Part shown: piece by piece, positions 13,591 through 47,657 of the stretch
Layout: each line of letters opens with the position of its first letter
Numbering within the stretch: position 1 is the first letter of the stretch
Translations under genes and position numbers: made by a program
NCBI GenBank assembly: GCA_009733575.1
Contig: ML769528.1
Location: 62,001 to 126,000, forward strand
Source: Gymnopus androsaceus JB14
Taxonomy: Eukaryota; Basidiomycota; Agaricomycetes; Agaricales; Omphalotaceae
Reading direction: 5' to 3'
DNA: 64,000 nucleotides
Notes under the pieces: model-generated
Database searches by the model: none
What the model saw: the letters and a program-made list of their open reading frames with translations, nothing else
What the model was told of the DNA's origin: nothing

Positions 13591-13595
13591 CCACC

Positions 13596-20977: not shown

Positions 20978-23900
20978 ACACAGGTCCTGTTGAGTCTCAG
21001 TCAGTTCCGGACATGGACAGCTCTATATATGTAGATAGTGGTATTTCGTACACGATAAATACACCTGAATCTACTCCCATTTTGCCATCTCCAAAAAAGA
21101 CTGAAAACCCTGTAAAGTTCACTCTGAATTCTTCAGAATGGTTGGTTAATTGTATACGGACATCAAATGACTCTCGAGCGATCGGAGAATTACGGACTTG
21201 GGTCCCTAATAACCAACGACGAGAAATATTGGATCAAACGGTAACGGAAATAAGGAAATTGTCAGTACCAGATGCAATTGAAGCAGTCAATAACTTCAAA
21301 CGTAAACATTTCATAAGAGGTACAAAGGGCAAGGACCTTAAACTATTGGTTATAATCGAAGACATCACAAAAGGCAATCAAATAGAAGCGGATGCTCTTT
21401 TAGATTGCGGAGCAACCGGATCATGTATCAATAAAAAATTTGTAGAAAAACATAATATTCCGATCCGAAAACTCCCAATCAAAATTGCCGTATACAATGC
21501 TGATGGTACTTTAAACGCCGGCGGATCAATCGAAGCAATGGCAGAAGTTCGTTTAGTTATCGGAGACCATGTGGAAAGAATAGAATTTGGAGTTACCAAC
21601 CTGGGAAACACTGATATCTTCATTGGTCTCGATTGGCTTAGAGAACATAATCCTAGTATAGATTGGACAAACTCTACCATTACATTCGACCATTGTCCTA
21701 CTTGTTGCGGGTATATACCTTGGTGGCTAAATCCAGAAGAAGGAGCCTCCCTCAATTGTTTAGAAAAAGAGGAGAGACTCTTTATATTTGATTGGGAAGG
21801 TTATGTCAAAGATCACGGACATATACGTGCCATGTCAGAACCCTCTACAGCAGATCAATACGTTAAAGAACACCCTACCGTATTCAACAAACAAGGATTT
21901 GACGAACTTCCTAAACAACGACCATGGGATCATGCCATTGAACTTACACCTGGTTCTAACCCTGTCGACTGCAAAGTCTACCCTCTGAATCTAGACGAAC
22001 AAAAAGCATTGGATGAGTTTCTAGAAGAAAACTTACAATCAGGACGCATTCGTCCATCAAATTCTCCAATGGCTTCACCATTCTTCTTTGTCAAGAAAAA
22101 GGATGGCGCTCTACGACCGGTTCAAGATTATAGGAAACTCAACGACATGACGATTAAAAACCGTTATCCACTTCCTCTAATCCAAGAACTAATTGATAAG
22201 CTTAAAGACACCAAGGTTTTTACAAAGATGGACATTCGATGGGGATACAACAATATTCGGATCAAGGATGGTGATGAATGGAAAGCCGCATTTAGAACTA
22301 ATCGAGGACTGTTCGAACCAACGGTCATGTTCTTTGGTCTCACAAACTCTCCCGCAACATTCCAAGCATTCATGAATCACATCCTGAAACGTCTCATTGA
22401 TGAAGGACACGTAATTGTATATATGGACGATATTCTTGTATTCACGAACACCATTGAAGAACATCGTCGCATTGTACATGAAGTCCTTAAAATCCTTGAA
22501 GAGAACGGTCTGTATCTAAAACCGGAAAAATGTACATTCGAATCACCTCATGTTGACTATCTTGGAATTATTGTCGGAAATGGACAAGTGAAAATGGACC
22601 CAAAGAAAGTCGAAGCAGTCAAAGACTGGCCAATCCCAAAGAAGAAACGAGACATACAATCCTTTTTAGGATTTTGTAACTTCTTTAGACGCTTCATTCG
22701 AGGGTTCAGTCACGTTGCCAGACCGCTTAGCAAACTCACCGGAAACGCAGAATGGTCATGGGGTCCTGAAGAGTTTCAAGCGTTCGAAACTCTAAAAACA
22801 AGAATCGCCGAAGACGTTACACTAGTAATTGCTTTAGACAATGGGAAATTCCGAGTAGAAGCCGATTCATCCGACTTTGCCAATGGCGCTGTACTATCCC
22901 AACAGGTTGATGGAAAATGGAGACCAATAGCCTTTAGATCCCGCTCCCTTAATGACGTTGAACGTAACTACGAGATCTACGATAAAGAAATGATGGCAAT
23001 CATGGATTCATTATCGGAATGGCGCCAATATCTTATGGGCGCTCGAGAACCATTTGAAATATGGACTGATCACCAAAATCTCCAGTACTTCCGTAAACCC
23101 CAGAAACTCAATCGACGACAAGCACGTTGGGTTACGGAACTATCCGAGTACGAATTTGTCCTTCATCACAAGCCGGGAACTTCTATGGGAAAAGCAGACG
23201 CTTTGTCAAGGATGACAAACCTTGAGACGGGGGTGAATGACAACAAAGACATTGTTGTTCTTAAACCAGAATTTTTCATCAATATAATCCGAGAAACTGA
23301 GAGTCCAGAAGACGCCATAATTGAAAAAATCAAAAAATATGTCAATAACATGGACAAAGCAGTCGTAGAAGCTCTAAACGGAAAAGACAAGTACTGGGTT
23401 AATGAACACGATGGAATTATTACGTGGAAAAATCGCATCTATGTCCCAAAGAACCGAGAATTACGAGGAGAAATCATACAAAAACACCACGACTCAATCC
23501 TCGGAGGACATCCGGGTCAATACAAAACGTGGGAATTAGTCACTCGTGATTACTGGTGGCCAGGAATGGGAAACGACATCCGAATGTACATAAAAGGATG
23601 TGAGAAGTGCCAAGCCACAAAAATTCATTGAAGTAAACCTGTCGGACATCTCAACCCTCATAATGTACCGTCTGGACCCTGGGAATTCGTAGGAGTAGAC
23701 CTGATTGGGAAACTACCAGAAGCAGGAGGATTCGACGCCATTGTCGTATTCGCTGATCACTATACAAAGCGAATTAGACTTTTTCCCACTCATATGTCAT
23801 TAACGTCAGAAGGCATGGCACGAATGTATAGAAAAAAAATCTTCCCTATTCATGGACTTTTCCAAAAGATTGTACATGATCGAGGTCCACAATTCCATTC

Positions 23901-24918
23901 AGGTTTTATGAAAGAACTTTACAAACAACTCGGAATCGAAGCAAACTTTACGACGGCATATCATCCTCAGACTAATGGACAAACTGAAAGAACAAACCAG
24001 GAAACCGAACACTATCTTCGTTTGTTCATTAATTACCATCAGTCAGATTGGCACGAATGGTTACCCACAGCCGAGTTTGCATACAACGATCGAGTACACT
24101 CCGCTACGAAAGTTACTCCCTTCTTTGCCGATATGGGTCGTCATCCCTATAAAGGCACTGCACCGAAAGAAAAGTCCTCTAATCCCTCAGCCCAAGAGTT
24201 TGCCGATAGTATGAAGAAAGTACGAGACAAAGTAGGATCAGCGCTAAAGAAAGCGGCTGAAGACATGACTCACTACTATGACAAAAATCATAACGAGTCA
24301 AGAGAATACAAAATCGGAGACAAGGTGTGGCTCGAAGGAATAAACATTACGACAAGTTGTCCAATGAAAAAGTTGGATGACAAACGTTTTGAACCTTTCG
24401 AAGTATTAGAGAAAGTTGGCCGTAGTTCATACAAACTCAAAATCCCAAAAACATGGAGGAACGTTCATAACGTTTTTAACGAAGTTCTCCTCACGCCATA
24501 TTATCCTCCACAATTTCCAAAACAACCCCGAAATACCAATCCACCTCCCGTAGAAATCGAAGGAGAAGAACCAGAATATGAAGTCGAAGAAATAGTCGAT
24601 TCGAAGGAAAATAAAAGAAGCAAGAAGGTGTCGTACAAAGTCAAATGGAAAGGGTATGGACCACATGAAATGACATGGGAACCAGTATCAAATCTCGACA
24701 AAGCAAAGGATGCTATTAAGGATTTCCATAATAAAAATCCTTCCAAACCACGCTCAAAAGACATCCGAAAACTTGAAATACCCATGGCATTATTTCCCAA
24801 ACACCTTTTTCGCCCCATTCCTGAATCATTAACGACACCCGTTCCAACTTCTATACCAACCGAATCCATGACTGCAAAGCTCGCGCGATGTGGAAATCGC
24901 GTCCTAAAGAGGGGGTAA
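20962..24918 (+). pseudogene. Pol of gypsy element 2: PR-RT-RNase H-IN-chromodomain
   Basis: The pol frame is -1 relative to gag and open from 20884. Protease: LLDCGATGS (Cys in place of the usual Ser or Thr after the catalytic Asp). RT: SPFFFVKKKDG, RYPLPLI, and the catalytic YMDD at about 22420-22431. RNase H: FRVEADSSD and WTDHQNL. Integrase: HHCC finger (GGHPGQYKT, CEKCQ), then GVDLIG, VHDRGPQF and ERTNQETEHYLR for D, D and E. A chromodomain (YEVEEIVDS, YKVKWKGYG, TWEPVSNL) ends the protein. One TGA at 23629-23631, just after the HHCC domain, breaks it. The final TAA (24916-24918) abuts the 3' LTR. Confidence 0.9.
24906..24918 (+). promoter_or_regulatory. Polypurine tract of gypsy element 2
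   Basis: AAAGAGGGGGTAA directly precedes the 3' LTR and overlaps the last codons and the stop of pol. Confidence 0.75.
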
Positions 24919-28882: not shown

Positions 28883-30855
28883 AAGACATTAAAGCAAGAG
28901 TAGAACTTAAAAAAAATCGCTGGAAAGTAAAGGAAGTGTGTTTACTCGCAAAGAGGCGGAGTGAGCAAGTTGACCTGGTAATCTCGCTTTTCCAAAGTAG
29001 AGGAAGACCTTATATCAGACTGGTTGCCAAAAATAGGAGTGTTGGGATCTGGAGGCGGCGTTGATCTGCCTTGTGGTAAATCCATTCTGAATTCAACCAG
29101 CGCAAGCGCACGATAAGCTGTTTTTGTTTTATTTCGCGCAAGAGGTAATAAGAAGAGAAACAGATTTATATTTGAGAAATGTTATATTGAAATAAGAGAG
29201 TTTCTGGTAAGGAGTAGAAGGGTCAGAACATGAATAAACTCTAGGCAAATTCAGAACTTACAGTAACGGCGCCGTATTGTGCTCCCTTACGCTTTAAATC
29301 CTTTCGCTATCTTACGATTCCCGTTCCGTTCTACTTCTTCTCCCAAATCCTTCATCAAAGGTGGTATGCCCAGCCTCCAGAAGAGGATGACGACATTCAA
29401 TTAGAAGAACGAAAGAAAAAACCAACAAAGGATGATACTTACCGCAAACAATCAACGCATGTTCCCAACCAAATCAACGCCTGCGTCTATGAATGGAGAG
29501 GTCTGGGAGGAGAGGGAACAAGGGAGTCTGGGCCCAAATTTGGGTTCGGGGTAAGGATATGCCATGGGTAGCGAAGATGTGCACCAGCACACGCTGTTGC
29601 TATTAATGGAAACAGCAGAGGAGGCGGTGTAAAGAGCATGGAAGAAGGGGAAGAGGTGGAGGAAGAGCTTGGTCAGAACAGACAAGGAAGAGTCGAAGAA
29701 ATGGGCACTCACACCCACAGCAAACGGAGCCTGCCTCTAGTCCCCTGCTAATCTTACCTTCGTATCCTGCCTCTCAGCTCTCCCCGGAGAATTTAAACGC
29801 AGATTTACAGAGCGTAGCTCTACGGCAGCCCAAATCCGGGTCCAAGAGGATTGAAAGGGCCGTATACAGCGTCGGCGGCGAGGAAGGTGCTTGAGATGAG
29901 CACGGAGGCTGCAGAAGGGAGGATAGAAGCGACACAGTTAGTGGAGGAATGAGGAAATGCAGTGAGAGGGGGACAGAAAAGGGAAAAGGAAGAGAAAAGA
30001 ACGAAACCCACTCACAAACAGAATCGCCGTCTCCGTTTCCCATTCCACGCCCTCCATTCCAAAGTCGCGATAGACGTCATCGTCAAGGCGTAAAGCCTAA
30101 GAAAGGTGGATTAGGCAATCCCTGTTATTCCAAATCAAACTAAACAAGTCCGACTTGTACACAGGGCGACTTGCTCCTAGCTTATTCAAAAGCCAAATAA
30201 ACTTTTGAACATTCCGAGGAATTCCTGTAGGCCTACAACATGCAACCTGGGACAGTGATGACGACGTTGAGAAGAAAGAGAAGGGACGATGACAGCCAAA
30301 GCTACCCGTCTTTGAACGTCGTGAAGCAGTCGTCCAAGGCAGAACAACGGGTGAAATTATCCAACCGTAAAGACAAGGTCGTATCATACAAAAACCCTCG
30401 GAGGCTGCATATCCGGAAGAACTCGAAGAAAGTCCAATATAGACGAGGCAGATGGATGGGATATCAGAAGCATGAGTGTCTGTTAGACATGACGGTGGGG
30501 GTGGTACTCCCGTATGCCTGGTATAGTCCAGGATCTACCAATGAAAATCAGATGGACGTACATCAAAATAGAGACATTCACATACCAGTTACTCAACTAG
30601 ATGTTTTGCAGTCAGTATCCCCGATTCCCGGATACTCTTTTCTGCCTATCTAGAACGCTCGAAACCCAATTATTCCTTCCCTAATTTCCATAAGCACTCA
30701 TATCCCCCCTCTCTCTCAATTCCTTTCAACTTTTATTGAATTAATCTGAGGCAAATTCGGATATTTGGGTGGGGTCAATGAAATTATAGACGACAATTTG
30801 AAAGCATCAGATCGGATGGTGTGGTGGTTGAAGGAGAGAATGGACAGTAACATGA
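28883..30855. other. Intergenic, no supported gene
   Basis: Further 5' GH31 sequence may exist up to about 29000 but is too decayed to follow. Minus-strand frames at 29452-30043 and a plus-strand frame at 30240-30653 have no recognisable domain. Confidence 0.35.
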
Positions 30856-31275
30856 TAAGCTTTGTTAAACACAGGGGGGTCAATTAAACTTTTCGTTAAA
30901 CAGTTTAACAGCACTAAGTACAATACATAATAAACCTGATTGAACCCATACGCTGTCCCCAATCAAATAATGAGTTTAACCGCGTTGAACACGGTTTTGA
31001 ACCACCAATCCATTAATCTCCCTGTCACTAACCCAGCTGTTAAACACCGTTAAACCGCTGTTCAACAACGTTGAACATCTTTTCAAACGAAACAAGACCT
31101 AAGTACACCAAGTCGTTAAACGTTGTTTAACGAGTTTAAACCAGAAAACGCACCAAAAAATTGTGTCATGTTTTGTGTAGTACTTGGTAGTTAAACTATG
31201 TTAACAGTTAAACAAGCAACCGTTAAATGGGTTAAACTGGGACACCAGATACAGTGCCCATTAAACCAGTTAATT
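30856..31275. repeat. Left TIR and subterminal GTTTAAC array
   Basis: The TIR spans about 30856-30911. Motifs follow at about 30993 (GAGTTTAACCGCGTTGAAC), 31051 (CTGTTAAACACCGTTAAACC), 31075, 31113, 31190-31210, 31221 and 31260. Many pairs are palindromic. Confidence 0.65.
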
Positions 31276-31399
31276 TGGTGAATCGGAATTAAAAGATAAG
31301 ATTATGAGTGACAGGAAAGACGAGCATAGTTATAAAGGAACCGAGAGGGAGTAAACATATGGAGACGAAGCATAGGCAGCAAAAAAAATGATAACAAAA

Positions 31400-33764
31400 T
31401 TATATCCTTCTACTCTTCTTACGCTTCTTGTTGGGTGGCTGCTCAACACCGGCGTTCTCCTCCATTCCTCTGGCATCTACGTCCTTATTGGCAGGCCGTC
31501 CGCGTTTCCTGCCGCGCGCCCCACCAACATCATCACTTGTCGTAGCACTGCTTTCAACAGACACTGCTCCCGGGACAGGTTCCAGCCTGTATGTCCAAAA
31601 CTTGGATGACTTCTTGCCCGTGACAATGACTTCTGTACTAGAGGGACCCGCTTCGTTAGAACTACTAGCTGCCATTCGACGACCCCTGGTACTTCTGCGT
31701 GGAGGCACTGCAACACCATTTCCGACTGGTTCGTTTGAAGCGCCGGTTTCATCATTGGTCGATGAAGGTCCCGGAGTAACTGACCTAGCAAGAAAAGGAG
31801 CTCGCCCTTCACCTGCTGATGACAAAGTAATAGGAGTGGGAGTGGGAGCTCGAGCTGGAAGGGGAGCAGGAGCAATAGGAGCAGGAGGAGGGGGAATCAG
31901 CGCTGGAGCAGGAGTAGGAGCTTGAGCTGGAAGAGGAGCAGGAACAATGGGAGCAGGAGGAGGAGGAATCGGCGCTGGAGCAGGAGTGGGAGCTCGAGCT
32001 GGAAGAGGTGCAGGAGCAATGGAAGCAGGAGGAGGAGGTATCGGCGCTGGAGCGGGATTGGGAGCTCAAGCTGGAAGAGGTGCAGGAGCAATGGGAGCAT
32101 GAGCAGGAAGATGAGCAGGAGCAGGATCATCCGCTGAAGTCAATGTCCTGGGAGTAGAAGCAGGAATGGCGCTTCCTGAAGTCGAAGTACTGGGAACAGG
32201 AGCAGGGGCAGGAACAACTTCACCTCCTGGAGTCGATGTGCTGGGAATAACAGCAGGAGCGACAACTCGTTCGCGTCCTGAAGTCGAAGCAGTCGCAGGA
32301 GGAGGGATAGAAGCGCGAGGAGGCTGAACAACTGGTTCACGTTCAGCGAAACGAAAGCCGGATCCCTCTTCTTCTTGGAAATATTCAGCCAAGGTGACTA
32401 TATTCGCCCCAGAGATTGTTTGAGGGTCGACCAGTGCGACAGGCAAGTGGAACTTTTGCTCGTCGTAGAAGGATCGGGGATCTTCCTTGATTTCATCCCA
32501 AGGTATCTCGCTGCCGTATTGCTTGCCTAAATAACCTATCAATACAATCCACAAAATTTCATTCCAAGTAGACTCACCCCAAATTTTACCCAAAAAGTCT
32601 TTGACCAGTGTTTGAATTTCCTTCCCTTTCAACTCAGCGAGCTCGACGTCTGGAAAGAGCGCAAAGCCGTCGTCGTCGTACAAGAAAATGTACCCCTTTG
32701 GGTCGACAGGCAACGCATCAGCCGCCCAGTTATGGAACGGTTTCACGTAGAGCTTGAGAAATTCGTTTTCGCCAATGGTCTCTGCAGCAAAATCTAGGCC
32801 ACTGGTTCCCATCGAGAAGCTGGTATAACCGTCAGTTGGCAATAGTCAGGCTGTGTCTCTAATAACTTACTGTCTCGTATGCACCTGCTGCTCTGTGTTA
32901 CGATAAGAATAAACCACCAGGGCTTCCACCGGTCCTACACGGCCTGATGTTGCGAGCGCTTTGAACAAAGCCGGCAAAGCTGTTTGAAACCTGCTTTGAT
33001 TGCTAGATATATGGTCCGTAAGTTTCACGAGTATAGCACTAGAAAAAAGTTCACCTACCCAGCAACGTCGACCTGTTTCGCCTCTTCGTTCCATTGATTT
33101 CGTTTTTCCTCCGTCAACCCGTCCCACATACCCTTCACCACAGTCTGGTAATTTTCACCCTGGTCGACCCGTTGCTGGATATCGTCCGCTAGCTGGACCT
33201 TGAAATATTCCCGACCTGTAGTGGCAGCACGGAGTTCTCGAATACTCTCGATAATCTTGATCGCATCCTCATGCGAAACCACGATGCCACTGCCAGGACG
33301 GACCTTCTTCAACTTGTGGTGGTAGTGGTTCTGGAAGACGCGGTTGATGGCCTATAAACAAAGCAACGTCAGTTGTCATAGCGGATTCACCACGAAGTCA
33401 AACTTACAGTCAAATCACTCTTCCTCCTCCCATTAGTCAGTCGGATATTCTGAAACGGTGCCGTCCCATGTTTGATTAATGCCAGGATAGCTTCCGAAGT
33501 GTCTTTCCTCCATTTGTTAACGACGGAACTGCCAACGAAATTGGAGTCATGTTTGTTGACTTGCTTCTCAAATTCTTTGATATAGTTTCGTTTTATTAGC
33601 TCGACTACCCGCGGGTGGATATCCGTACTCTCTCCCTTCTTTGCAGCTGATTCACGAACGGTACCAGCTTGCGCAGGAGCAGCAGGAGCTCGCGCAGGAG
33701 CAGCAGGAGGTGTGTCGGGGGTGTATGCAGGAGGAGGTGTGTTAGAAGGCTCGATGTTGGGCAT
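31400..33764 (-). pseudogene. Element gene A: large Pro/Ala-rich hypothetical protein
   Basis: Four exons: 33764-33408, 33351-33059, 33002-32871 and 32819-31400; introns of 51-56 nt have GTAAGT or GTAGGT donors and keep the frame. A further 51-nt in-frame intron (GTGAGT...TTTAG) probably lies near 32520-32570. The N-terminal part is Ala/Pro-rich, then helical (KKVRPGSGIVVSHEDAIKII; GMWDGLTEEKRNQWNEEAK, slightly HMG-like). The C-terminal part is a Pro/Ala repeat and a basic tail (PPNKKRKKSRRI). A single TGA (32068-32066) interrupts it where sibling repeat units have CGA. I recall similar multicopy proteins in mushrooms, but the function is unknown. Confidence 0.6.
31829..32110. repeat. 72-bp tandem repeat, about 3.9 copies
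   Basis: Units starting near 31836, 31908, 31980 and 32052 encode a 24-residue Pro/Ala block (APAPIPPPPA and PLPARAPTPA types) on the minus strand. The frame is kept through all copies. Confidence 0.75.
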
Positions 33765-34341
33765 TGTGGCAAAGTGGGATGAAAAAAAGCGGGTCGTAAA
33801 GTGACAGTGGATATGACATGGCTGCTTTTATACCTTTCAGGCCACATGAGGGACAATAGATACAGAATCTCACCTGCTTTGATCAAAGGCCACCAAAGGA
33901 CAATAGTTGCCTGCTGGTCTAACCTTGGGCCTGCTGGTCCAACCTTGGCCAGCAATTCCGGGCGTCATCTAATGAAAAGGAAAACAGTAGTCAAGTAGAC
34001 TACAGAGCCTTCAGCTTGCGCTGAAGGAGCAGATCACCAGAAAGCAATCCCAGGAAAAGCTATGGGTCTATGATGAGGAATAGGCGAAAGAGAAAGTAAT
34101 TCTCAGTAAGCACCGACGGAGTCAAAATGATTTTAAGCGCCAGAACTCGGCTGGGCTCGCGGCATTACTAATGCGCTGTAAATTTCTCCAAGTACTTCTT
34201 ATCCTTCCAGACTCGATCCTGCGAATCCTTCTACATTATTGACCTATTATCGACCATTTCTTGTGGTTGTTTACTCTTTGATTTCTGTCATTGAGTTCCG
34301 GTGTTTAGATATCTTGTACTTGGACTAATCGCGAAGCCGCC
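33765..34341. promoter_or_regulatory. Divergent promoter region between genes A and B
   Basis: 577 bp separate the divergent start codons of element genes A and B, so a shared upstream region is likely. No defined operator was identified. Confidence 0.35.
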
Positions 34342-36695
34342 ATGAGGTACGTACTTTGCGACGGTTCATGTTCGAGTATGGATGACTTACCACCTACCAG
34401 CCTACCTATGACTAAAGAGAATCTGCTCAAAAACAGGAAGAAACGTGAAGATGGTGTGTTATCGTTTTTATACTTTTGTTATTGCTTTCGCTGACTTTGC
34501 CAACAGGCCAGAGCTCGACTATGTGTAAGCTGTGAAATGTGTTTTACCATTCTCGAGCTGACCTTCATCTTGCAGTCACATTGCCCTCAGGCTTGGTTGA
34601 ACTCCCTGATAGCGTACTGAAGCTCCATAGTTTCCTCAGTGAGCTGTCCTTTTCGGATGGAGTCTGTGGAACCTTCCTCCCTCACACCAAAGAGTACATA
34701 ACGTCTCCCAATTGCAAATACATCCCTTCACCTCCAATGGGCTCGATGCGAGATTTGTATTGTCGATCCGATGCTCGTTACGGTGACGACGATCCCGTTT
34801 GTTGGCCTCAGCCCTTTAACCCGAACTATCCCTGGTACTCTGCAATTACCAGGAAGCCTACGAATTTCACCTCCCTTGCTGATGACATATTGTGGCTCGA
34901 TCTACGGGACAGTGATCTCACATACACTGTTGAAGGAGAAAAGCGCAAGGAAGGTGTTGTGAAGAAAGAGCTGACCAATGAGTTGGAGTCTCAGATCGCC
35001 CCTCTCAAGCGTCGAACGCTCGCATGGCACCAGACCAATTGAGATGAACTCAAGCTCAGGTTCGTGAAGGAACATACAGACACCATTGACCTGTGCCTCA
35101 CTCGTCTGAAAACGGTGTCTGCTTCGATCAGAGTCCAGCAACTTGCTCTCACCGAACTTCAATGTGGTCTACTCAGTGTTCAGGCTCTTTTAGATTATAC
35201 AGACTTTGAATCTCGTAGTATCACCTCGGATGCACCTCTTTCATTCAAAGGCAACAAAATGGGAGCTTTTGTTTGGAATGATAGGGACGCTCGCTTGTTA
35301 TATCACGCAGGCCTTCCTGTGTTTTTCATACGCCCTTGGATTGAATTTGACCGTCAGATTATTGAAGTCTTCACCTTGTTGCAGCAACCCCGGCTGCCTC
35401 AAGTTCAGATGGCCCCAGCCGACCCTCCTTACCACACTATAATGATGGGTCAGGCTGGTTCCGATAGCAAATTCGCCGCCATTCGTCAGGCATCGATTCA
35501 ATGTTTCGACGTCGTATCTCCTTTTCAAAACCTCCACGTACCTGGTGGATATACCTCATCTTTTGAACTCGGTAAAGGGAAGATCATGGCTCCAGCTTCA
35601 TCTCCACCGAGTCATATACAGCAGCCTTCCTCCTCCCAGACTCACGGTAACAAGCACTCTAAAAGTCATTTCCACCATAGTCAGGCATCCAGGTCCCAAA
35701 AAGGTCGTAAACCTGGCATGAATCGTGCGTTTCTGTTTTTATTTATCATTACTCCTGTCTAATCTCTTTGATATATAGCTCCAACGATGCAACGTGATAC
35801 ATTTGCCGACCTGCCTAAGGATGAACCTTTGGTCCCGCCTGCCATTACTGCCTGGAAGGATGTCAATAAAACTATCGACCAGAATGGTGTTCTGCCAGGT
35901 AAAAGGTCGCTTACTGTTCCCGACCCTGGGCTGTTTTTTGGACTTCAGCACCAGAATCGACAGTCATCGTATCTCTTCATGTGGCAGCATTTCAGAAATG
36001 CATGGCTTACTGCCTTGGAAGGCGGTCGCTCACCTCTGACAGTTGAACTTTGGCGCAAGATTCTCGCCTATGAATACCTTCAGCCGATTGAGCCAGGGCA
36101 GGTGATTTCCCCAAAAATGCAGGCCACCCTTGAAGCTACAAAGATTGTCGAGGATGTAATTTGTGCGTACGACTCACGTATGCTCCTCATGCCAGCGCCT
36201 TTCACGGCCACTTTCGACCCATCCACTGCTCGCAAGCTCATTCGCGAGTTATGCATGATTAATTTCCGCGCAGAACTCATATATGTTGATCAAGTCCTCG
36301 ATACAAGCAAACCTGTGCCACAACGAACTTTGACCATGGCCGAGTTTGACGCTGCGTGTGCCCAGCATCGACGCGACCGCATCACCCTCATGAATGGGGT
36401 ATTTTTGTATCATAATCTTGTTCCACATCCAGACGATGATCTTGGGATAGCTGCAGTGGACTGGAGCGACCGCTATAATGCGCTCAAGCACTTCTGGGCC
36501 TTGCTGAATACGTGGCCGTTGTCGAAACCGGCGATGTGGCGACGCGGCATGGACATGGATCTCAGTCACAAACGGTTTGGAACGAGAGAGGGGGCACAGT
36601 GGGAAAGGATGCTTGCAGAGTATTACATTCGAAGTGTTTTCAGTGTATTGAAGCATCCTCCTTCGCTCCCTCGTCGATTAGTGCTGGCACCTTGA
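34342..36695 (+). pseudogene. Element gene B: large hypothetical protein
   Basis: Five exons fit one frame: 34342-34346, 34401-34453, 34507-34524, 34576-35724 and 35779-36695, with good donors and acceptors, including a 5-nt first exon after GCCGCC. Visible blocks are YPWYSAITRKPTNFTSLADD, a coiled region, AFVWNDRDARLLYHAGLPVF, then VPDPGLFFGL and YLFMWQHFRNAWL. I recall proteins with a similar AxVxDxxTAxxLYxAGLPVY block and an LPDPxLFxxxQ block as expanded hypothetical families in Agaricomycetes. No catalytic motif is evident. One TGA (35040-35042) interrupts exon 4 where CGA would fit. Otherwise it is well preserved. Confidence 0.6.
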
Positions 36696-36979
36696 TTGTG
36701 ATTGCTCCTGTATGTTTATTTCAACTTTTTGTACATATGAAATGCTTCTATGATTGTTATCTACATGTACATACTAGACTTGTACTAATTGAAGTCTTTT
36801 TTATTGCTTTTTTACACTTGTTGCTGAATACGCTTTGACCTTGTGGATCAAGATTTGTCCGACAATTGATTTTGAGCAGATCGGTCCGAGTCGCTCACAG
36901 GTCTTGTCTGAAGGACGTATCAAGTTGAAACATACAGTAAATACACACGAAGTACATTAGAAATAAATAAGTAAAATAT
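36696..36979. other. Convergent 3' region between genes B and C
   Basis: Short intergenic stretch between the stop codons of two convergent genes; nothing else is seen. Confidence 0.4.
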
Positions 36980-39408
36980 TCAATGTTCTAGAACGGTAGT
37001 TGCAAGACTATTAATCGTTGCGACCATGTCCGCGATGTATATGCTATCCTTCTCAGCAGCTTCCCTCCGATGCCTACCAATGACGTCCGATAAGATCTCC
37101 CCCTCTGGTAATTCCTGCAAGCTGCAGCTCTTCACCACCTTGTTGCACTGATCGTGTAGCCGCCTGTACAAAGTAGCTTGCCTTCGTGCATACGCAACAT
37201 GTCCAAAAGACTAATTGTGCCCATCGTTGTCGGTCAATGGACAAGCAGCAGACTTGGACCAGGCGGCTTCCATAGTTTGACAGCCACGACGATAGTTGAA
37301 TAGTTCGGCGTGAATGGTTTCGCATACTTCACGCCACCGTTCATCTTCAGCTTTCTTGCGGAAATATTCGATTTGGTCACCTGTTGAAAAGTTAGTTCGT
37401 TCGTTTTGAGATTGGAAAAGTGAACGAACATTCTTCTTCAAACTCGGAGAGGTTTTGGCCCTGTCCACTCACACCAAACATAAGTCTCTTGGTCCAGATC
37501 CAGCCGTTGGGCTTGGTTTCTGGTTCCTTGCCCTTGGTGACATTGTTTCGTTGTGCTTTCCCTGCAAGCATATGAGTAAAATCGATGTTCAATCTGCAGT
37601 GAAGACTCACGTCTTTGTCGACGGGTGCCCTGTGTACTAGCCATCATCGGCTCATCAACCACCATTTCATCGCCTTCATCTATGCCTTCTTCCTCCTCCT
37701 CATCGTCCTGTTCTGCAAGCATGGTGTAAAGAGCACCATCCGTTTCCCGCAAATCACCGAGCGCTCGCGGATGCACCGTGGAGTATCGATAAGTATCGGA
37801 AAGTGACATGGCGGGGAGCTCCTCGGGTTGAGCACCTCCAAGATCCAGTAGAGCCTTGCGAACTCTGTTATAGTCAGCGATACAGGAGTCCCGCTCCACC
37901 TCAATCCTCTTCAGCTTCAACTGGGACTGAGTGTTGGCATTGGTGCCTCGTTCCTGCTTCTTTTGGTCGTGGGTGATTGAGTAGCTTTTGGCAGCGTTCT
38001 GAACGGACTGGATATAATCGTAAAGTTCCCCTTCACGCATTTTGCACTCGAGAGCTGCGAGATGCCCGAGATCACGAGCTTGGCGATGGGCAGGAGTCAT
38101 ATTGGACGGCAGTAAGAGGTTCTCATCTTCAGGTTTGACCTCATCATTCTTGTCGTAGATAGTGACCAGCATATCCTCGATTGCTGGTATGATTGACTTC
38201 TGCGTGTCCCGGTATACTGAGATTTTCTCGGTGAGAGCTTTCCGTTGTTTCGCAATATCCTTCTTGACCGTTTCGGTTTGGTTGAGGGTGAGTTTACCGC
38301 GAATTCGTTGTCTACATTAAGAACAGGTTCACATTAATCCACAAACGATCAAGCTGACCACATACTGTTCATGTTGAATAGCTAAGCCCTGTTGAATCAA
38401 ATACAACTCCATGTTCCCTGCATCTCCATCCGCAAACGAGGTCGCGTTGTTGAGTAGTAGCTGTTGATAGATCTTCTCCTGCGAAGGTACTGTAACAGAA
38501 CATGTTGAATACAACGACGTCACAATAAAGTGAAATGGAATACCTTTAGAATGGTGTTGGTAAATTCCTTGGATGATACCGTTCGAGTAACGCTTGGCTC
38601 GCTGGGCCTTCTCCTCCCATGAAGCAGCCCTGTCTCGATAGGTGATACAGGCCGATATAAAGGCTCTGTGCTTTCGACGAGAAAGCAAAACAGCGTCCTT
38701 GTAGAGCCTGAGGAACAGCTGGGGCATTTCGACATTTTTACGGAAATTGTTGTAGGTGTCTTTGCAAACGGAAGACCCTTTGGAGCAGGGGAGTTGGATG
38801 GTATACGTGTTGTTTTCGAGATAGGATATGTCAACTTTGAGAAAGAACCCATCGGTTTGCCACACTTTCGCCCAGTGAAAAGGATGATGGTAGTGGTCTC
38901 GAATGAAACACTTCTCACAGGTGGCCTCATAGTCGTAGCACTCATCGCATGCGATCAGGCGATACAATCCAGAGCCACATTTGCAGAGTTCGTTGACTTT
39001 GGCGCAGGCCTCGGCAGCTATCAAATGGAATTGTAACTTCGGAAGGTTTTCCATAAATTCTGCCATGCTTTCTGCAGTCTATAAGTTTAAGCAAGTGAGC
39101 CGTGGAAAGCTTGAATCAACGAAGAAACACACCTGTGTCATTTGCTTCTTCTTTTCTTCAACCTTTGCCTGCTCTTCTTTCTCCTCCTCCTCTTCGGAAT
39201 CCGGTTCCTGTTCGACGGCGTGCCCTGGCATTGGTTGTGCGGAGGTTGATGGTTGTGCAGAAGTAGACGATTCTGCTAATCGCAATTTGCGGGGCAACTC
39301 AGAAAGTGGTCGAGATGGAGCACCGAAACAATGAGAGTTATCAACCAGCACAGGTCGTTTCAGAGCTTCTCGAGCTGCTCAGTCTATTTCTCTCTTGCAT
39401 TTCGACAT
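36980..39408 (-). pseudogene. Element gene C: CxC2/KDZ transposase-like, no catalytic core
   Basis: Exons: 39408-39133, 39078-38544, 38489-38367, 38311-37611, 37561-37430, 37380 to about 37240, and a last piece to 36980. Introns are 49-55 nt with clean borders; the last junction is unresolved. After an acidic N-terminus, a Cys cluster reads CKCGSGLYR, CDECYDYEATCEKC and HHPFHWAKVWQ, like the CxC2 domain of KDZ transposases. The second half (LLLPSN, LECKMREGE, NTQSQL, YNRVRKALLDLG, NGWIWTKR, then YFRKKAEDERWRE) follows the helical C-terminus of KDZ proteins. The several hundred catalytic residues expected between them are absent. Codon 10 is TGA (39381-39379), a likely CGA decay. KDZ kinship is from recall. 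Confidence 0.6.
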
Positions 39409-39814
39409 GACTGGACAAGAATTAGCGTAACGAATGAAATAATAATGGTCCACGCACCTAGGCCGAGGATGTTGAATTGAAGGAATGGTTCACAGAAATG
39501 AACAGTGACTGACAAGCATCAGAGCACAAGTACCACATGCGTGATACAACCGAGACAGGACAAAGAATAGGAGAACAAAAAGATCGAAGGCTTAAGCGCC
39601 CAGGTCAGACCGTGTTATCACGTTTAAGCGCCCAGTCCACATTTGAACGCTACAGGAACGCTAGTCGAAACGAAAACCTCAGTTCAGAGTACATGAAGAT
39701 CTAAATTTGTTGACATTGTTCGACGTAAAAAGCGTAATAAACTATATAAAAGACCGATGACAATACATGAAATACTAGATACTAATTAGTTTCTCCTCTA
39801 AATAAGCATCATGT
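39409..39814. other. Intergenic between genes C and D
   Basis: About 400 bp upstream of gene C; no further feature seen. Confidence 0.35.
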
Positions 39815-40671
39815 TTACTGCTCTTCACCATCCTCCTCATCCAAATGCCCTTCATCATCCTCCTCATCCAAATGCCCTTCATGGTCGGGGTGATCACTGT
39901 CATAGATCGGGGGACTCCCAATGCGCGACATGCTAGAAGGTCTAGTGGCCAGCCACTTGTTGACAGTAGTAGTATCGAGGATATCGTCGCTAGCATCGCT
40001 GGGGGTAACCGAGCCATCCCGAGTGCTACCAATATCATCATTGGCGGCGTTGTTAGCGTGGGGAGGGTTCACTGTGGACCATTTCAGTACGATCTATGTT
40101 GGTGAATAAAGGAATGAACTCACCAGTAGCAAACATGCGCCGATATTCAGAATCTGTAAGCTCGTTGCGTGTGATTGCAGTTCTTAGCTCCGGAATCATC
40201 TCCTTCAAGACGCCCTCCATGTCGATGATAACACCTTCGAGGATCACACTTCGCAGGGGCCATTGATCCAGCCTGCGCGAAAGGTCCAGAAGACAACGCT
40301 TGAGAGCCTTCAGGACAAGTATAAGCGTGGGGTCGACGTGAAAGACCTTGACATATAACGGGAAAAGGTCTAGAAAAAGTAGAATGAACATGAGTATGAA
40401 CGGAAAGAACAAGCTTGGCAGACGTACCGTGGCCCGTATGAGTACGTATGGGAGGCAGAGGTTGTTTACGAAGTATAGCCAGAAGGGTAGGTATACGTTC
40501 ATGAATAATGGGATCCAAGTTGTCGACAATGGCACGAATATGGGGTATGTCGTTTATGTAGGTGTCGGGCATATCAATGACTGCTTCGGTGATTTCTTCG
40601 ACGACAGAGAGAACTTTATCGAGATATCTGCTTGCCTTTGAGTAGGTCGCGAGAACAAGAGTGTTTGACAT
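39815..40671 (-). CDS. Element gene D: small helical, acidic-tailed protein
   Basis: Three exons (40671-40428, 40369-40124, 40071-39815) are joined by introns of 58 and 52 nt (GTACGT...CTAG; GTGAGT...CACAG), both keeping the frame. No internal stop. The first two exons are helical (SRYLDKVLSVVEEITEAVID; LILVLKALKRCLLDLSRRLD). The C-terminus is Ser/Asp-rich with a duplicated acidic unit (EGHLDEED, twice). Not recognised. Confidence 0.5.
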
Positions 40672-41372
40672 ATTGAGAGATCGCAGTTTGGGGGCAGGAC
40701 CAGTAAGGGTTGACGCGTTTTTAAAGGGCTAGGCGGACAAAAGAGAGAGGTCGGGCCGCATATACCGTATGAGGATCTAAAATACAATGAGTGGTCAAAG
40801 CTATACAAAAAAGAAAAGACCACCATACCTGCAAGCGGTCAATCCATAGCCACAAGAAGTGAGCAAGTCGGGAAAGCACCAGCAACAAGAAGTTACCAGC
40901 GACGGAGAGGATGTGCGTCCCCTCCAAAATTAAAGCAGAAATAAGCCATGGAAGTAGGAAGATCAGTGGAACAAGTCCCGGCCGAAGCCCGAAGTTCAAC
41001 TATGTGTCAGATGCCGCATGCTTGTCACGCGGCATCAAGCAAACGGCATCAACGGAAACTCATCTTCGCTTCTGCTTCCACCGTCGTTGTTGCACGTACT
41101 TGTCCCATTCCGACTGAGATTCACGCAAGTGGATCTCTTACTATGACTCCAGTCATAGTAATGCAGCTTCTGCTGCTGTTTTTCTTCCAGACGTTACTTC
41201 TCTTGGATGATTACCGACGGTAAGTGCTGCGAGTCGCATCTGGGGAAAATGACTAACTCTTGCACATCCATGACATTCAAGACTTCAAGAATCATCGAAT
41301 ACATGACTATCTGGCACCAGGCCTAGGGTAATTATATCGCCGTACATCTGCTCTAACAACCACTGAAGCTAC
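40672..41372. other. Intergenic between genes D and E
   Basis: A minus-strand frame (40999-40721) is hydrophobic but overlaps no recognisable family and may be chance. Confidence 0.35.
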
Positions 41373-41873
41373 TTAATTAGATTCCTCGGAATTTTCAACT
41401 CTGTTGCACTCGAAAACCACCCGACCTTCTAATACACTATTAGGAGTGGGTTCGGCCTCCCACGCCTGGATTCTACGCTGTAGAGGTCTGTACAACCCCT
41501 GCATAGCGAACAAGAGAGACCAGTCTAAGTCCTCTTGCTCGCAAAGGATGGCAAGGTGATTACAAGCCTCTATCAAGGCGTCCTGTCGGTCTTTCGCGGT
41601 GCAGCGGCACGGTCCTGCGTTGGAGAAACCTGCTCTGGAAGAAGGACCTGCGTTGGATGGAGATTTGAGAGCGGAAGATGAGATCTTCGTGGACTTCGAG
41701 CATTTTAGACGCAAGGGAGCTTCCTCACTAGGCAGGAATCCAGAGTCTTCGGGATCATCTGCACACTTCATTCGTTTTGGAGCTGGTGACCCACTCTCTT
41801 GTTCAAGCTTGCGTTTCAACTGCATGGAGGAACGACGAGGTGGCTGAGGAGTTTGTGGGTTAGGAGAAGACAT
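41373..41873 (-). CDS. Element gene E: 166-aa basic/Ser-rich protein
   Basis: A single open frame with ATG at 41873 and stop at 41373. The N-terminus is Ser/Pro and Lys/Arg-rich with a possible nuclear signal (PAPKRMK). A C-R-C motif (GPCRCTAKDRQDALIEAC) precedes a helical C-terminal half. It lies in the same direction as genes D and F. Not recognised. Confidence 0.45.
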   Translation of the reverse strand: MSSPNPQTPQPPRRSSMQLKRKLEQESGSPAPKRMKCADDPEDSGFLPSEEAPLRLKCSKSTKISSSALKSPSNAGPSSRAGFSNAGPCRCTAKDRQDALIEACNHLAILCEQEDLDWSLLFAMQGLYRPLQRRIQAWEAEPTPNSVLEGRVVFECNRVENSEESN

Positions 41874-42122
41874 GGCGTTGAGCGGGTGTACTGTTGTTGT
41901 GCTTGGAATTTTTTTTATCGACGGACGAGTGAGTTTTTATACGTCTTCTTGTTTTTGTGTGTGGCTCAAGCTAATTGGCCTCAGGTACTTTTCTTATTGT
42001 CTGGCTCATTTGTTCGATTTATTGTGGTGAAGGTCAAAGCGGGAAAAGCTTCGGAGCAAATTAGCGAAAGACAAAATGCTATAATTCTACAGATTTATGC
42101 GACAGAGTTCTACATTGTCAAA

Positions 42123-43206
42123 TTAACAATTATTATATATGGTTTGGGCCAGTGCTCGGAGTTTCGGGCCAAGAATAGTGTCCTGCATCCCATCACTGTT
42201 CGCAGCTTCCTCCAATTCATCACAGGCGTGAGACAAATACACCATCCACCTCGAGTTGGAGTCCACGACTTTAGTGGGACAGGCCAAAGCAGGCGTCTCC
42301 CCAAGCGAAGAGGGTCCTGCCACAGGTGTAACAGACTCCCTGCGAGAGATCTTGGAGAAAATTGGTTTACTGGGGCCCTCCACGAATTCGACCTCATCAT
42401 CATCGTCGTCAGTGGCGAGCGGGACAGGCTGAAATGCAATAACTTTGGAAGAACCTTCTGAGACCCTCCTTTGCTTCGAATTGACCTCATCATCATCATC
42501 ATCGATGGCGAGCGGGAAAGGCTGAGGGGTGATAACTTTGGAAGAACCTTCCGAGACCCTCCTTTGCTTCGAAGGAGTGGTGGGGTCAGCGGAATCCCTC
42601 TTGCGTTTGGAGCAACGGGAGGAGGAAGGAGTGCCTCCGGATTGCGCCAAAAAAGTCGTGATTTCTCCGTCAAGTGCAAGAAGCTGCCCAGCAGCATCTT
42701 CGAAGTGCGGGATGCACTCCTTCATGGCTCGCAGCTTGGTGATCTCATTGGTCGACATGAGCCATCGACAGAATCGCTGGAAACACTCTTGTCTTTTGTC
42801 GTCGGACATTGGAAACACGGGATGTTCTTTTGCGCTTCCGCAGCCTTTGTAGTTGCAAAGACGCTGATAGACATAGTCAGTAGCGTGGTGCAGGTAGAAT
42901 TGCAGGACTTACAGAGATGCTCAGCTTTGCGAAGTCGGTCGGATGATCCCGACCCATGCAAACACCCACTATGTGCTTGTATGAACTCTTTTTCGTAGGA
43001 TCCAGACATTTCGTAAAGTCTTCCAATGCCTTATAGCGATTGATTTCCTTCAGAAAAGTAATGACAATGCCCATCAGACCCTGCTGCATTGGGCTTTGGC
43101 AGTTGAAGAAAGAGGGAATAGTGCCAGAGTAAGTTGGATGGAGGGTGTACGGAGAGGGCTTCTGGGGAGAGCATTTGGTGGCTTTGGTTTTAGCAGGAGA
43201 CGACAT
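42123..43206 (-). CDS. Element gene F: internally repeated nuclear-type protein
   Basis: Two exons, 43206-42913 and 42863-42123, join across a 49-nt intron (GTAAGT...ATCAG) in frame. The start MSSPAKTKATK resembles that of gene E (MSSPNPQTPQ). The first half is basic, then a helical block (GLMGIVITFLKEINRYKALE). The second half contains two copies of a 31-residue unit (SKQRRVSEGSSKVI followed by a DDDDDEV run), with putative nuclear signals (SKRKRD). No stops interrupt it. Function unknown. Confidence 0.5.
42415..42600. repeat. 93-bp tandem duplication within gene F
   Basis: GCGAGCGGGA at 42415 and again at 42508 starts two closely similar units with TTTGGAAGAACCTTC and GAGACCCTCCTTTGCTTCGA. 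It preserves the frame. Confidence 0.7.
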
Positions 43207-43770
43207 CGTTTGAGTGGGTGGGACCGTTTGAGAGGAGGGTTTTTGTACTCTGGGAGGCCAAAGCAAAATTGAGCACCAGGTGTCATGCCACTTGGTCAGC
43301 CAGCCTTATTGTCCGATGTGGCCAGCAGCGATATGGCGAAAACTATTGTTCAGGTCAAAGCTGGGAAAACATTCTTGGAAGGGAGATTAGTTGCTGAATT
43401 GAACGCGGGAGCAGTGATTGGTATGCACGTTGGCGTTGCACCACAGTGGAGGGATTGGTGGAATTATTCGTGGTCGTCATTGTTGTATTTGGAATATTGT
43501 AGGCGGAATCGCTCATATCGATTCAAAGGGCTTCCGTTCCTGACATACGAAGAGTGAATCAGGCCCGTAATCGTACGAGTGATCACCTTGGTTTGGATGC
43601 ACAGGTAAGTTTTCTTTTCGCAAACGGACTTGTACATTCACTTGATGCCAGTTCTGGACGTAGATAAGTTCGGTATCCATATATACAGCTTTGACCATCC
43701 CTTTTTATTATTGTTTTCCTTGTTTCGGCGCACTCGGCAGGGTCTTATCTGGCCCTTATTGTTCCCACTG

Positions 43771-44187
43771 TATATATAACGGGGTGGGTCACCATTCCCC
43801 CATTTTGTCTTTCTCTCTCGCTTTTGACTTCCTCTCGCTCCAACTTTGTAAGTCCTCCAATTGCTTTAGACGTTTTCACTAAAATCAAATCTAATCTAGT
43901 ACTACGACAAATGCCTACAAGCCAGTTGCATAAGTCTCCTCAAGGTCCGACTCCATCTTCTAATGTTGGTAGTAAGAAGGGTGGCAACGAAGCTTCACCA
44001 AAAATGGCCAGGTTTGACAGCAAGGAAACTACTTGGTATGTCGAATGTCTCAAATTTACCATCTATTGGCTCATGATTCATTAGTATCGTTGACCAGAAA
44101 TTTGAGTGCGGTTTGTCGTTTAATGCGCACAGTCACCAGAGTGTCTGCCCATACGACTGGAGTTTTCAAGCGCGAAGCCGTTCTTAA
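43771..44187 (+). CDS. Element gene G: small Ser-rich/Cys protein
   Basis: A TATATATAA box (43771) is followed by a likely 5'-UTR intron (GTAAGT at 43850; CTAG just before 43901) and ATG 43911. Exon 1 (43911-44035) encodes MPTSQLHKSPQG and a Lys/Ser-rich stretch. A 49-nt intron (GTATGT...TTAG) leads in frame to exon 2 (44085-44187), reading IVDQKFECGLSFNAHSHQSV, about 75 aa in all. It lies close to the right end of the TIR element. Family unknown; the 3' end is uncertain. Confidence 0.35.
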
Positions 44188-44321
44188 GGGCTTTCTGGGT
44201 AGGGTTCTTCACAGTGAGTCTTTTTCTTGCTAATGAATTTTGCGCTCTCTGATTACAGCTCAGGTATAACTTAGTTGTCACTCTGGCCATATAATACTAT
44301 ATTTTTTTATCAATTGAATCT

Positions 44322-44834
44322 CACGCGACGCATTTATGTTTACCATTGGGATTCTCGAGCATGCAGTTTAACATATTAAACTGTTGAACAAAGGCACGCG
44401 ACGCATTTATTTTATCATTGAGAATCTGGAGCATGCGGTTTAACGCGTTAAAATCACAGTTAAACAAATGATCTGAGAACATAGAGGGGCGATTGGATGG
44501 AATGGTTCAACGCGTTCAAAGCGCGTTGAACGCGTTAAACGGCCTGTTGACATGATTAGTAGCGTCTTCAAATAGTTCGTGTTGAACGCATTGAATGAGG
44601 TTCAACGGCCTCTCCAGTATGCTTACAGTCAAGCAGCATTGAACGTGTTTAACACGTTTAACGTACTCATGAGTAAATCAGCAATTTGTTCAGATCAGTT
44701 GCGTTGAACGCGTTTAACGAGATTTAACAGGATCAGATGTAAACTATATTTGCTCTAAATAGATGGTACAAATAGGTAGCGTTTAACTGTTAAACGAAAA
44801 GTTTACTTGACCCCCTCCTGTTTAACAAGGCTAA
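44322..44834. repeat. Right TIR and subterminal GTTTAAC array
   Basis: Dense GTTTAACGCGTTAAA, TTCAACGCG, GTTGAACGCGTTAAAC and ACGTGTTTAACACG motifs run to the TIR at about 44779-44834. A 50-bp direct repeat (CGCGACGCATTTAT...GCATGC) occurs at about 44325 and 44397. Confidence 0.65.
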
Positions 44835-45351
44835 TGGTGTTTTATGAATGGAGCACTGGTTGGAGTGCCTAGTCATCGAATCGTCGAACCTAAGCTCTCT
44901 CGTGCGCGCGTCATCCAGGGTCTGGACTGGAAGCGTTGTCGATAACTGCTGCACGACATTGAACGTTTTGAAGCAGACGGAGGTTCTGGAACGTTCCGAA
45001 GACTTCCCAGGGATAGGCCTATGTAGCAGCACCATTCGCGGACAGGATGCAGCTGTCTAAACTTGAGACGGAGACCATGAGCAGTTGGCGCAGGAAGATG
45101 GTAAGGGGAAGGAAAGTAGATTTAAGCATAATAGCAGCGCAAATAGTCCACAGATTACCTAGCACATCTCCTGCTGCTACCTAGTGCAGTGGACCTACTG
45201 GACCAACTCTTCCCCCAGAGTTTCAAGTCAATGTTGCGCACTGGCGAGATCCCAGATATGTCAAACCTCGAAAATATTCTATGGATTTGGATTAAACATC
45301 CAGGACTTCCTCAATCACCACCAAAGGCATCAGCTGCCTCGACCACCTCCA

Positions 45352-45615
45352 ATGGCAGCGCAACCGGAACTTTGGCAGTACATCGCGGACCAGGTCATAG
45401 AAGACCTGTCCAACGCTTGTGAATTTGATCTTCGGCTTGTGCTGCCTGTTTCTACAGAATACAATTGTATGCTTTCCCTCTATGATTCGCACACAATTAC
45501 AGTCACAAAGCTGGATGACGAAGAGCAGGATGTTATTCGGATTATGAGGGAAAGACTAGGGAATGTCTTGACCAACCAGAAGGCACGGTGGCTCTTTAGT
45601 TATATTGAATTCTAG
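45352..45615 (+). CDS. Small hypothetical protein
   Basis: ATG 45352 opens MAAQPELWQYIADQVIEDL and continues through VTKLDDEEQDVIRIM to TAG at 45613-45615 (87 codons). The frame is also open upstream to 45184, and a second frame there (DLLDQLFPQSFKSML) may be an earlier exon. The composition looks coding; the family is unknown. It lies just outside the 14-kb TIR element. Confidence 0.35.
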   Translation: MAAQPELWQYIADQVIEDLSNACEFDLRLVLPVSTEYNCMLSLYDSHTITVTKLDDEEQDVIRIMRERLGNVLTNQKARWLFSYIEF

Positions 45616-47657
45616 ATATAGGTGAGTTGCCTTCCTTGAGATTATGCCATTACTGAAGTAAACTTTTTTCAGCCTCTTCTAGCATTGACTCGATCTTCGA
45701 TCCCTACACTATGGTTGCCAACACAAACAAAGTTTCATTTTCGCTTGCTGTGGTGCTGTAGCTCGGTGATGGTTCTCTTGGACTTTGTTTACTGTAACAC
45801 GCAGAAGCACACCACGATTTGGTGCAGCTGCTAGAAGGCACCAATTACCCATTACAGTTAATAATCATACAACGACTCCGAGAGAGGGAAAACTGAATTA
45901 AACGAAAAACAGAGGCTGAAATACAATTAGTCTGAAGGAAATACCGTAACCTCGCTTCCCAAGAAAAATTTGCGCTAAAGGGAGACCTCTTTCTTCTTAT
46001 CCAACTAAACTTTTCTGGTATCCATGTTCTGACCTGCAAGCTCAAAGATGAAAACGAGAACATTAGCTTTCAACCAATGAGTAAACCGACTGGTCAACCA
46101 TTATTTATTTAAGCAAATGCAGTCAGTCCTGTTTTCACTGTTATAACAAGCTGCTCGAACTGCGATGGCGACTGCAGATGGTATTTCCCCAATTACCTTC
46201 ACATATCCTCAAGCAATAGCAGACACAGATGGATACCCATGTCTAGAACAACGAGCGTGCACAACGGGAGTCCAGGTATCGGTATCCCCACTACCCCAAA
46301 CCCACAATTGACAATGCTTTGTTCTAGAACCCTCCTCTCTATGGCCATGCCGGTGTAGTCGGATGTGTTTTCAGAAACAGGATTGGCGAATTCCGAGTTG
46401 TAGGGTTTGTCCTCCAAAAATTGCTGAAGGGATGGCTTAGGTTTATATACTTGTAGAAGTCGACAGGTTGCTAATGAGCAACTCGAGCCAAATTTTGGCC
46501 CAGGTAGTAACTGAATGCCGCAATAAATGGGAGCTCTGGCTTACCTCGCAAGCGAGTCCTCCAGCCCCCGATCTCGGACTGCTTTGCAGCTCCAGTCTCG
46601 GTAAGCTGTTGTTTGTAGATCCTCAGCAATGACAATACATTATTATACAATTTATATTCGGTTTTTAGATTGTGAAAGACGTATTCATAAACAGTCTGAT
46701 ATATATACGAGTTACTGAGAATCCAAAGGGTCACTGCCCGACTCGGAGCTGCAGCTTTCGCCCTCCAGAGAAAAATGAGTATTAAGTCCCTGCTTCATTT
46801 GAGCACGTGGAGTCTACTTCCCACAACGCATCCAGGGATTCACTGTCGCTGAAGATGCAAAAGAGGGAGCTGAAGACAGGAAATTGTTGAAGGGGGGTTA
46901 GCCTGAATGATCTCTTCATCAGCATTGTCATTGCTCCAAGCGGAGCCGAGCATTTCTTCTACTAGTGCATACGAAGACAACAATCTGGCATCTCCACCAT
47001 GATTGCAATGCCATTCCAAATCCTATTTGTCGAAACAAAAATTGCACAGAACATCACCATTGCTTCCACTGCCTCTACCCTTCATCCTCTTTGGCTCACA
47101 AATGGACTCCAAAGGCATTGGAAAGTATTTGTACAGGTACAGGCTTATAGCCAGGACACTCTCGAGCATTATACCAAATGGCGTAAGGTGCGGAATGCAT
47201 TCAGAGGAGCAGAAAAAGGTCATATACTATGGGAGTAAAATCGAATTCACCAAAGAGAATATGTAGCTTGTAACTGACAAATGTATACCGGATGCCAAAA
47301 TGCTAGCCTATAATTGGAACACGATCAAGCGCCCGCAAGTCAACACCATGTTACTCCACGACTAGCCGGCATTTCCTGTGGAATCCACACGTCTCTTCCT
47401 TCTTTCCATGGCAGCCTCAATGAATGCAATTAATGCCATATATAATGACCCATCGGTACGTGCCCAATTGCCTGCCCTATATATATACATACATAACCTG
47501 TCCTTCAAGGTTGTCGTTATTCTTCAGGCCGCTGCCCAGTCTCCCAAAGCCAGCCGTACTTGCGTGAGGATTTTAATGAGCAATATTGAGATCACGCGGA
47601 TAAGTGACCAACAGCCAATCAGATCATTTCAAACATGAGAATCCTCACTCCAGGACG
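45616..47657. other. Intergenic, no supported gene
   Basis: Frames on both strands (for example 46199-46417 and 46999-47266) show no recognisable motif. Confidence 0.35.

Follow-up and report, generated by a model that had tools for sequence, protein, structure and literature searches.

A 14,001-bp unit at positions 30845-44845 of the 64,000-bp stretch of Gymnopus androsaceus JB14 DNA analysed here (the window, which lies in contig C146 of the 83.3-Mb, 934-contig assembly) is, we are nearly certain, an internally deleted member of a family of KDZ-superfamily DNA transposons. It was inserted with a 7-bp target duplication, its two ends are unlike, and it looks transposase-less because the KDZ core was lost by internal deletion; the family is placed in the KDZ superfamily because sister copies carry a KDZ transposase. 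The initial annotation, made from the letters of the window, had taken the unit for a large non-autonomous element with terminal inverted repeats, and this is borne out, the KDZ core being deleted here and the ends kept. It had also put the unit forward as an undescribed system, a suggestion that falls with the finding that the known KDZ core is present in three sister copies whose ends are the same.

Ends and insertion site

The limits of the element, which begins with CAGTAAC and finishes with GTTTTAT, were set by comparison with other copies. Inverted ends of about 55 bp had been described; the arms found here (30849-30909 and 44781-44841) are 61 nt long and 84% complementary, and they are the only pair of at least 25 nt in 29000-47000. 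A target duplication, proposed earlier as a check, is present and perfect. The terminal features, in window positions, are as follows:

30838-30844, no strand: left target-site duplication GAATGGA, identical to 44846-44852; single copy (one mismatch) at C409
30845-30909, + strand: left terminal inverted repeat, with the CAGTAAC end; its arm, 30849-30909, is the partner of 44781-44841
44781-44845, - strand: right terminal inverted repeat, ATAAAAC end (GTTTTAT on the + strand), from the inverted-arm pairing
44846-44852, no strand: right target-site duplication GAATGGA, perfect 7-bp match to the left copy

On another contig, C409, there is a related empty site, which the joined flanks of the element match with 95.3% identity over 600 bp; this site has GAATGGA once, with one mismatch. 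The empty site for which the initial annotation had asked was found as a related sequence, and not as a demonstrated allele. The flanks (30544-30844 and 44853-45152) are themselves repeated, the C409 sequence being an unoccupied copy 95% identical to them.

A family of copies with the same ends

The genome was searched for each end pattern with up to 2 mismatches, and facing pairs were counted when less than 20 kb apart. The CAGT-end pattern occurs at 34 places and the ATAA-end pattern at 25, while the reversed-pattern controls gave 0 for both. These ends form 21 facing pairs of 1,504 to 16,661 bp, the window copy among them, so the other copies that had been named as a check do exist; every pair is mixed, with one CAGT and one ATAA end (21/21), and 17 ends are left unpaired. 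C221, whose second end is off pattern, was excluded from the pair counts. The target duplication is a perfect 7 bp in 14 of the 21 pairs and matches at 6/7 positions in three more (C174, C324 and C307), which gives 17/21 with 7 bp if one mismatch is allowed. It is apparently 8 bp in two pairs (C237, 8/8, and C60, 6/8) and absent in two, C211 and the longer C37 copy.

When the flanks of 14 copies were joined and searched for, at least four copies (the window copy, with its counterpart on C409, and C37b, C174 and C155) proved to have an unoccupied counterpart that matches through the junction; this is a lower bound, the scoring having covered 40 of 173 candidates. The unoccupied-site match of C155 falls within a local repeat; the 2-kb copy there adjoins C155:96393-96822, where tandem units recur about every 110 bp as judged from match spacing.

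The longest copy, on C104, is 16,661 bp long, contains no N and is flanked by the duplication AAACTCC. It is colinear with the window element in nine same-order pieces, which together take in about 11.2 kb of the 14.0 kb and are 70-82% identical. The interior of the window element is common to the C118 and C104 copies.

The KDZ transposase gene

The initial annotation saw no catalytic core in the window, and Pfam and tblastn scans found none; it had supposed that a mobility enzyme might hide among the genes to which it gave no function. The enzyme is instead a KDZ transposase, and the window copy holds its gene in a form shortened by 1,363 bp:

37130-39378 (approximate limits), - strand: KDZ transposase remnant, NCBI BT96DRAFT_997514, 586 aa; CxC2-type zinc-cluster half and C-terminal part, core absent
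38759/38760, no strand: clean joint of an internal deletion, where 1,363 bp present in the C118 copy are missing

Across the deletion the zinc-cluster half and the C-terminal part are fused in frame, with one open reading frame (ORF), 38329-39078, spanning the joint, and the NCBI prediction for this gene is a protein that fuses both remaining parts. The missing 1,363 bp are measured against C118, and the KDZ core falls in the stretch that is absent from the window relative to C104. No Pfam KDZ match was found in the scanned window ORFs, and the C118 core used as a query (190 residues) matches the window only over its last 40 residues, beyond the deletion. The remnant keeps CxC2-homologous sequence (tblastn, 55% over 110 columns), yet gives no Pfam match. 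A spliced gene model from the C211 copy matches Pfam KDZ (PF18758) at 1.6e-38 and CxC2 at 2.2e-24, and tblastn places a KDZ core inside three of the 14 fetched copies (C104, C118 and C211). Genome-wide, at least 161 places match the Pfam KDZ model, and one of these lies within the C118 copy.

Subterminal GTTNAAC arrays

Clusters of palindromic GTTTAAC and GTTGAAC motifs had been noticed at both ends of the unit, and these are confirmed, the motif being best written GTTNAAC:

30845-31344, no strand: left subterminal array, by motif count; its 14 GTTNAAC sites span 30864-31237
44346-44845, no strand: right subterminal array, by motif count; its 16 GTTNAAC sites span 44366-44826

These 14 and 16 sites in the terminal 500 bp compare with shuffle means of 0.69 and 0.23 and with 0.12 sites per 500 bp in the interior. 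No site is present in the element's 300-bp flanks, and the rest of the 64-kb window has at most 2 in any 500-bp bin. The motif is enriched at both ends in all 14 fetched copies, the window copy included, with 6-17 sites on the CAGT side, 3-18 on the ATAA side (shuffle means 0.13-0.69) and 0-1.51 per 500 bp in the interiors; flanks of up to 300 bp are free of it in 13 of the 14, C324 having one site on each side. By likeness to arrays in other transposon families, the GTTNAAC palindromes are presumably transposase binding sites. A literature search that paired KDZ or Kyakuja with subterminal repeats found no paper, and within that limited search the terminal arrays may be a new feature.

Accessory genes

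The remaining genes of the element are listed below, where "near" means within 12 kb of one of the 10 closest KDZ loci:

31400-33762, - strand: G1, NCBI BT96DRAFT_997512, 668 aa; no Pfam family above cut-off; near 8/10 KDZ loci
34536-36695, + strand: G2, start undefined; no Pfam family; near 6/10 KDZ loci
40053-40728, - strand: G4, possible gene, model uncertain; ORFs, with similar sequence in C104
41373-41936, - strand: G5; near 5/10 KDZ loci
42123-43305, - strand: G6; near 7/10 KDZ loci

The genome was searched with one exon or ORF each for G1, G2, G5 and G6, and at least one of the four is near 9/10 of these loci; the chance expectation for such co-occurrence is 0.003-0.005 per locus and gene. 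The 12-kb limit was chosen after the positions had been seen (G1 at C784 and C98 is 11.6 kb from KDZ), and overlapping or adjoining rows were merged in the count, into which 15/16 rows for G1, 14/18 for G2, 9/11 for G5 and 17/20 for G6 were entered. Outside the 10 closest loci, inspection found no KDZ match within 12 kb of an accessory match among the matches listed. At the related KDZ loci C104:121310-131980 and C285:69264-85331 the order and orientation of the accessory genes around KDZ are unlike those in the window, and the set is still together. In Rhodocollybia butyracea, KDZ and G1 proteins are likely linked, being encoded on contigs of equal length (210833), and KDZ and G2 proteins likewise (78088). 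Within the limited literature search, the presence of these four genes near KDZ loci may also be a new feature.

None of G1, G2, G5 and G6 matches a Pfam family above the cut-off where scanned, and no convincing relative of the accessory proteins was found among solved structures; the structure model of G2 is mostly helical, with no clear fold match. The G1 C-terminus reads GRKRGRPANK, which is not called by Pfam and which we take to resemble an AT-hook. The window copy of G2 has an in-frame stop at 35040-35042.

Ratios of nonsynonymous to synonymous substitution rates (dN/dS) were calculated for 23 window segments compared with the C104 copy, among them eight other ORFs meant as controls. Four KDZ parts gave 0.22-0.37 and three G2 parts 0.19-0.33; the values were 1.24, 0.43 and 0.54 for G1, 0.56 and 0.37 for G4, 0.54 for G5, and 0.71 and 0.40 for G6. 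Seven of the controls yielded 0.28, 0.70, 0.86, 0.87, 0.99, 1.05 and 1.36; the eighth yielded no value. Because of these values, KDZ and G2 look selected, and G1, G4, G5 and G6 less clearly so. Ratios against the C118 copy are noisy, as that copy is very close (one control ORF gave 0.32 there).

Comparison with known transposons

The family is a variant within the known KDZ superfamily, and is like Kyakuja in its duplication length. The sections of Kojima 2025 (PMC12730594) on Kyakuja of Agaricomycetes describe two Laccaria families with 7-bp duplications, CA..TG ends, no inverted repeats and a TET/JBP gene. The window family shares with them the KDZ transposase, a mushroom host, the 7-bp duplication and a 5' end in CA, and is unlike them, by that description, in its CA..AT ends and its 61-nt, 84% complementary inverted repeats. 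The whole genome has no Tet_JBP match over the cut-off (one lies below it, on another contig), with at least 161 KDZ matches, as against the TET-carrying Kyakuja families of those sections. In the same source Zisupton and a Dileera element have 8-bp duplications; the transposase superfamily is shared with them, but 8 bp is not the rule here (7 bp in 14/21 pairs, 8 bp in 2/21).

KDZ1, KDZ2 and KDZ3 of Cryptococcus neoformans, in the part of PMC12810828 that describes them, are 9.2-11 kb long and have a CxC1 cluster; their inverted repeats measure 139-241 bp and their duplications 8 bp or 4-8 bp. They resemble the window family in being large, in having terminal inverted repeats and in encoding a transposase with KDZ and a zinc cluster. 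They differ in that the cluster is CxC1 there and CxC2 here, and that part of the paper mentions no subterminal arrays for them.

A CACTA/EnSpm assignment was considered and rejected, as these elements have CAC..GTG ends and 2-3 bp duplications, and the window element has CAGTAAC..TTTTAT and 7 bp. No hAT family was found among the Pfam matches of the scanned ORFs, which cover part of the exons. The transposase of maize Ac/Ds is of the hAT type. Like the window family, Ac/Ds has many shorter copies, some with internal deletions, with shared ends and subterminal repeats, but the latter are 11-bp repeats, as given in the relevant part of PMC3260210. A 7-bp duplication does not by itself exclude hAT, since the hAT7 families of rusts have one according to the section on them in PMC12730594.

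Proposed mechanism and alternative explanations

In the mechanism that we propose, the KDZ transposase of a sister copy, with its zinc-cluster part and RNase-H-like core, would recognise the terminal repeats and the GTTNAAC palindromes, bring the two unlike ends together and cut the element out, and the excised element would be inserted at a 7-bp staggered cut. We infer cut-and-paste by KDZ transposase supplied in trans: the window copy, without a catalytic core, keeps the ends and arrays predicted to be needed in cis and would move only with active transposase present in trans. Recognition of the arrays would be by the zinc cluster of the transposase, possibly also by accessory proteins. More tentatively, and with less than even probability in our estimation, this KDZ clade may move by a multi-protein machinery in which KDZ acts with the co-inherited proteins G1 (with its AT-hook-like tail), G2, G5 and G6, the latter organising the GTTNAAC arrays at two ends that differ in function.

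Several observations weigh against parts of this interpretation. No copy is demonstrably active or fully intact: the C104 KDZ gene has frame-disturbing differences relative to C211, C211 is without the C-terminal part of the gene, and C118 is interrupted by an N run of about 3 kb and rearranged there. A tblastn-detectable core is missing from 11 of the 14 fetched copies, the window copy having only the flanking parts and ten having no KDZ match. The core-carrying C211 copy is one of those without a target duplication, and the C409 empty site is a diverged relative. The interior GTTNAAC density rises to 1.51 per 500 bp in C114 and to 0.93 in C525, and transposase binding to the motif is presumed from likeness to other families. 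Some dN/dS values also point the other way. The N-terminal G1 segment that gave 1.24 against C104 gives 1.05 against C118, with stop codons there left out of account; also against C118, the ratio is 1.41 for the C-terminal KDZ part, 0.61 for G2c and 1.23 for G6a, which has 0.71 against C104. The off-frame control X40093 (window 39818-40093) gives 0.28 against C104, although it may be a real exon.

The existence of short copies of 1.5-2.4 kb and of 17 unpaired ends would fit two independent short repeats that happen to face each other across ordinary genes, an outcome by which the initial annotation proposed that its own reading could fall. The ends were found to recur facing each other in 21 pairs with an interior common to C118 and C104, however, and the shared ends, target duplications, empty sites and colinear 16.7-kb sister copy already refute this explanation, to which we assign practically no probability. 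An undescribed class of transposon whose recombinase is G1, G2, G5 or G6, with KDZ as a mere passenger, would draw on the recurrence of these four genes with this KDZ clade and on their failure to match any Pfam family above the cut-off where scanned. We consider it very improbable, and infer that the four are accessory factors (in DNA binding, regulation or target choice) and not the cutting enzyme.

A somewhat better, though still unlikely, possibility is that the window fusion protein, a CxC2 half and C-terminal part without the core, binds to the ends and acts as a repressor of the family. Deletion-derived repressors are known in other transposons, for example KP of the P element, and here the deletion leaves one ORF across the joint and NCBI predicts a 586-aa protein. 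The joint is seen in only one of the 14 fetched copies, however, and a kept frame is a one-in-three outcome and so unremarkable.

Neighbouring DNA

Elsewhere in the window, 12772-14956 and 20884-24918 (both + strand) are long ORFs that to the eye resemble the reverse transcriptase, RNase H, integrase and chromodomain regions of gypsy-type long terminal repeat retrotransposons; the 20884-24918 ORF is open except for one stop.

Significance

An element of this kind seems to have no transposase if a single copy is considered in isolation, and its sister copies explain why. KDZ transposases are numerous in Gymnopus androsaceus JB14 (at least 161 matches), yet Zisupton is the only well characterised transposon among KDZ elements according to the KDZ sections of Kojima 2025 (PMC12730594). 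With its defined, unlike ends, constant duplication length, empty sites, candidate binding arrays and conserved accessory set, the family described here makes DNA recognition by a KDZ transposase directly testable. If the multi-protein machinery suggested above is real, KDZ elements would be multi-component transposons instead of single-transposase ones.

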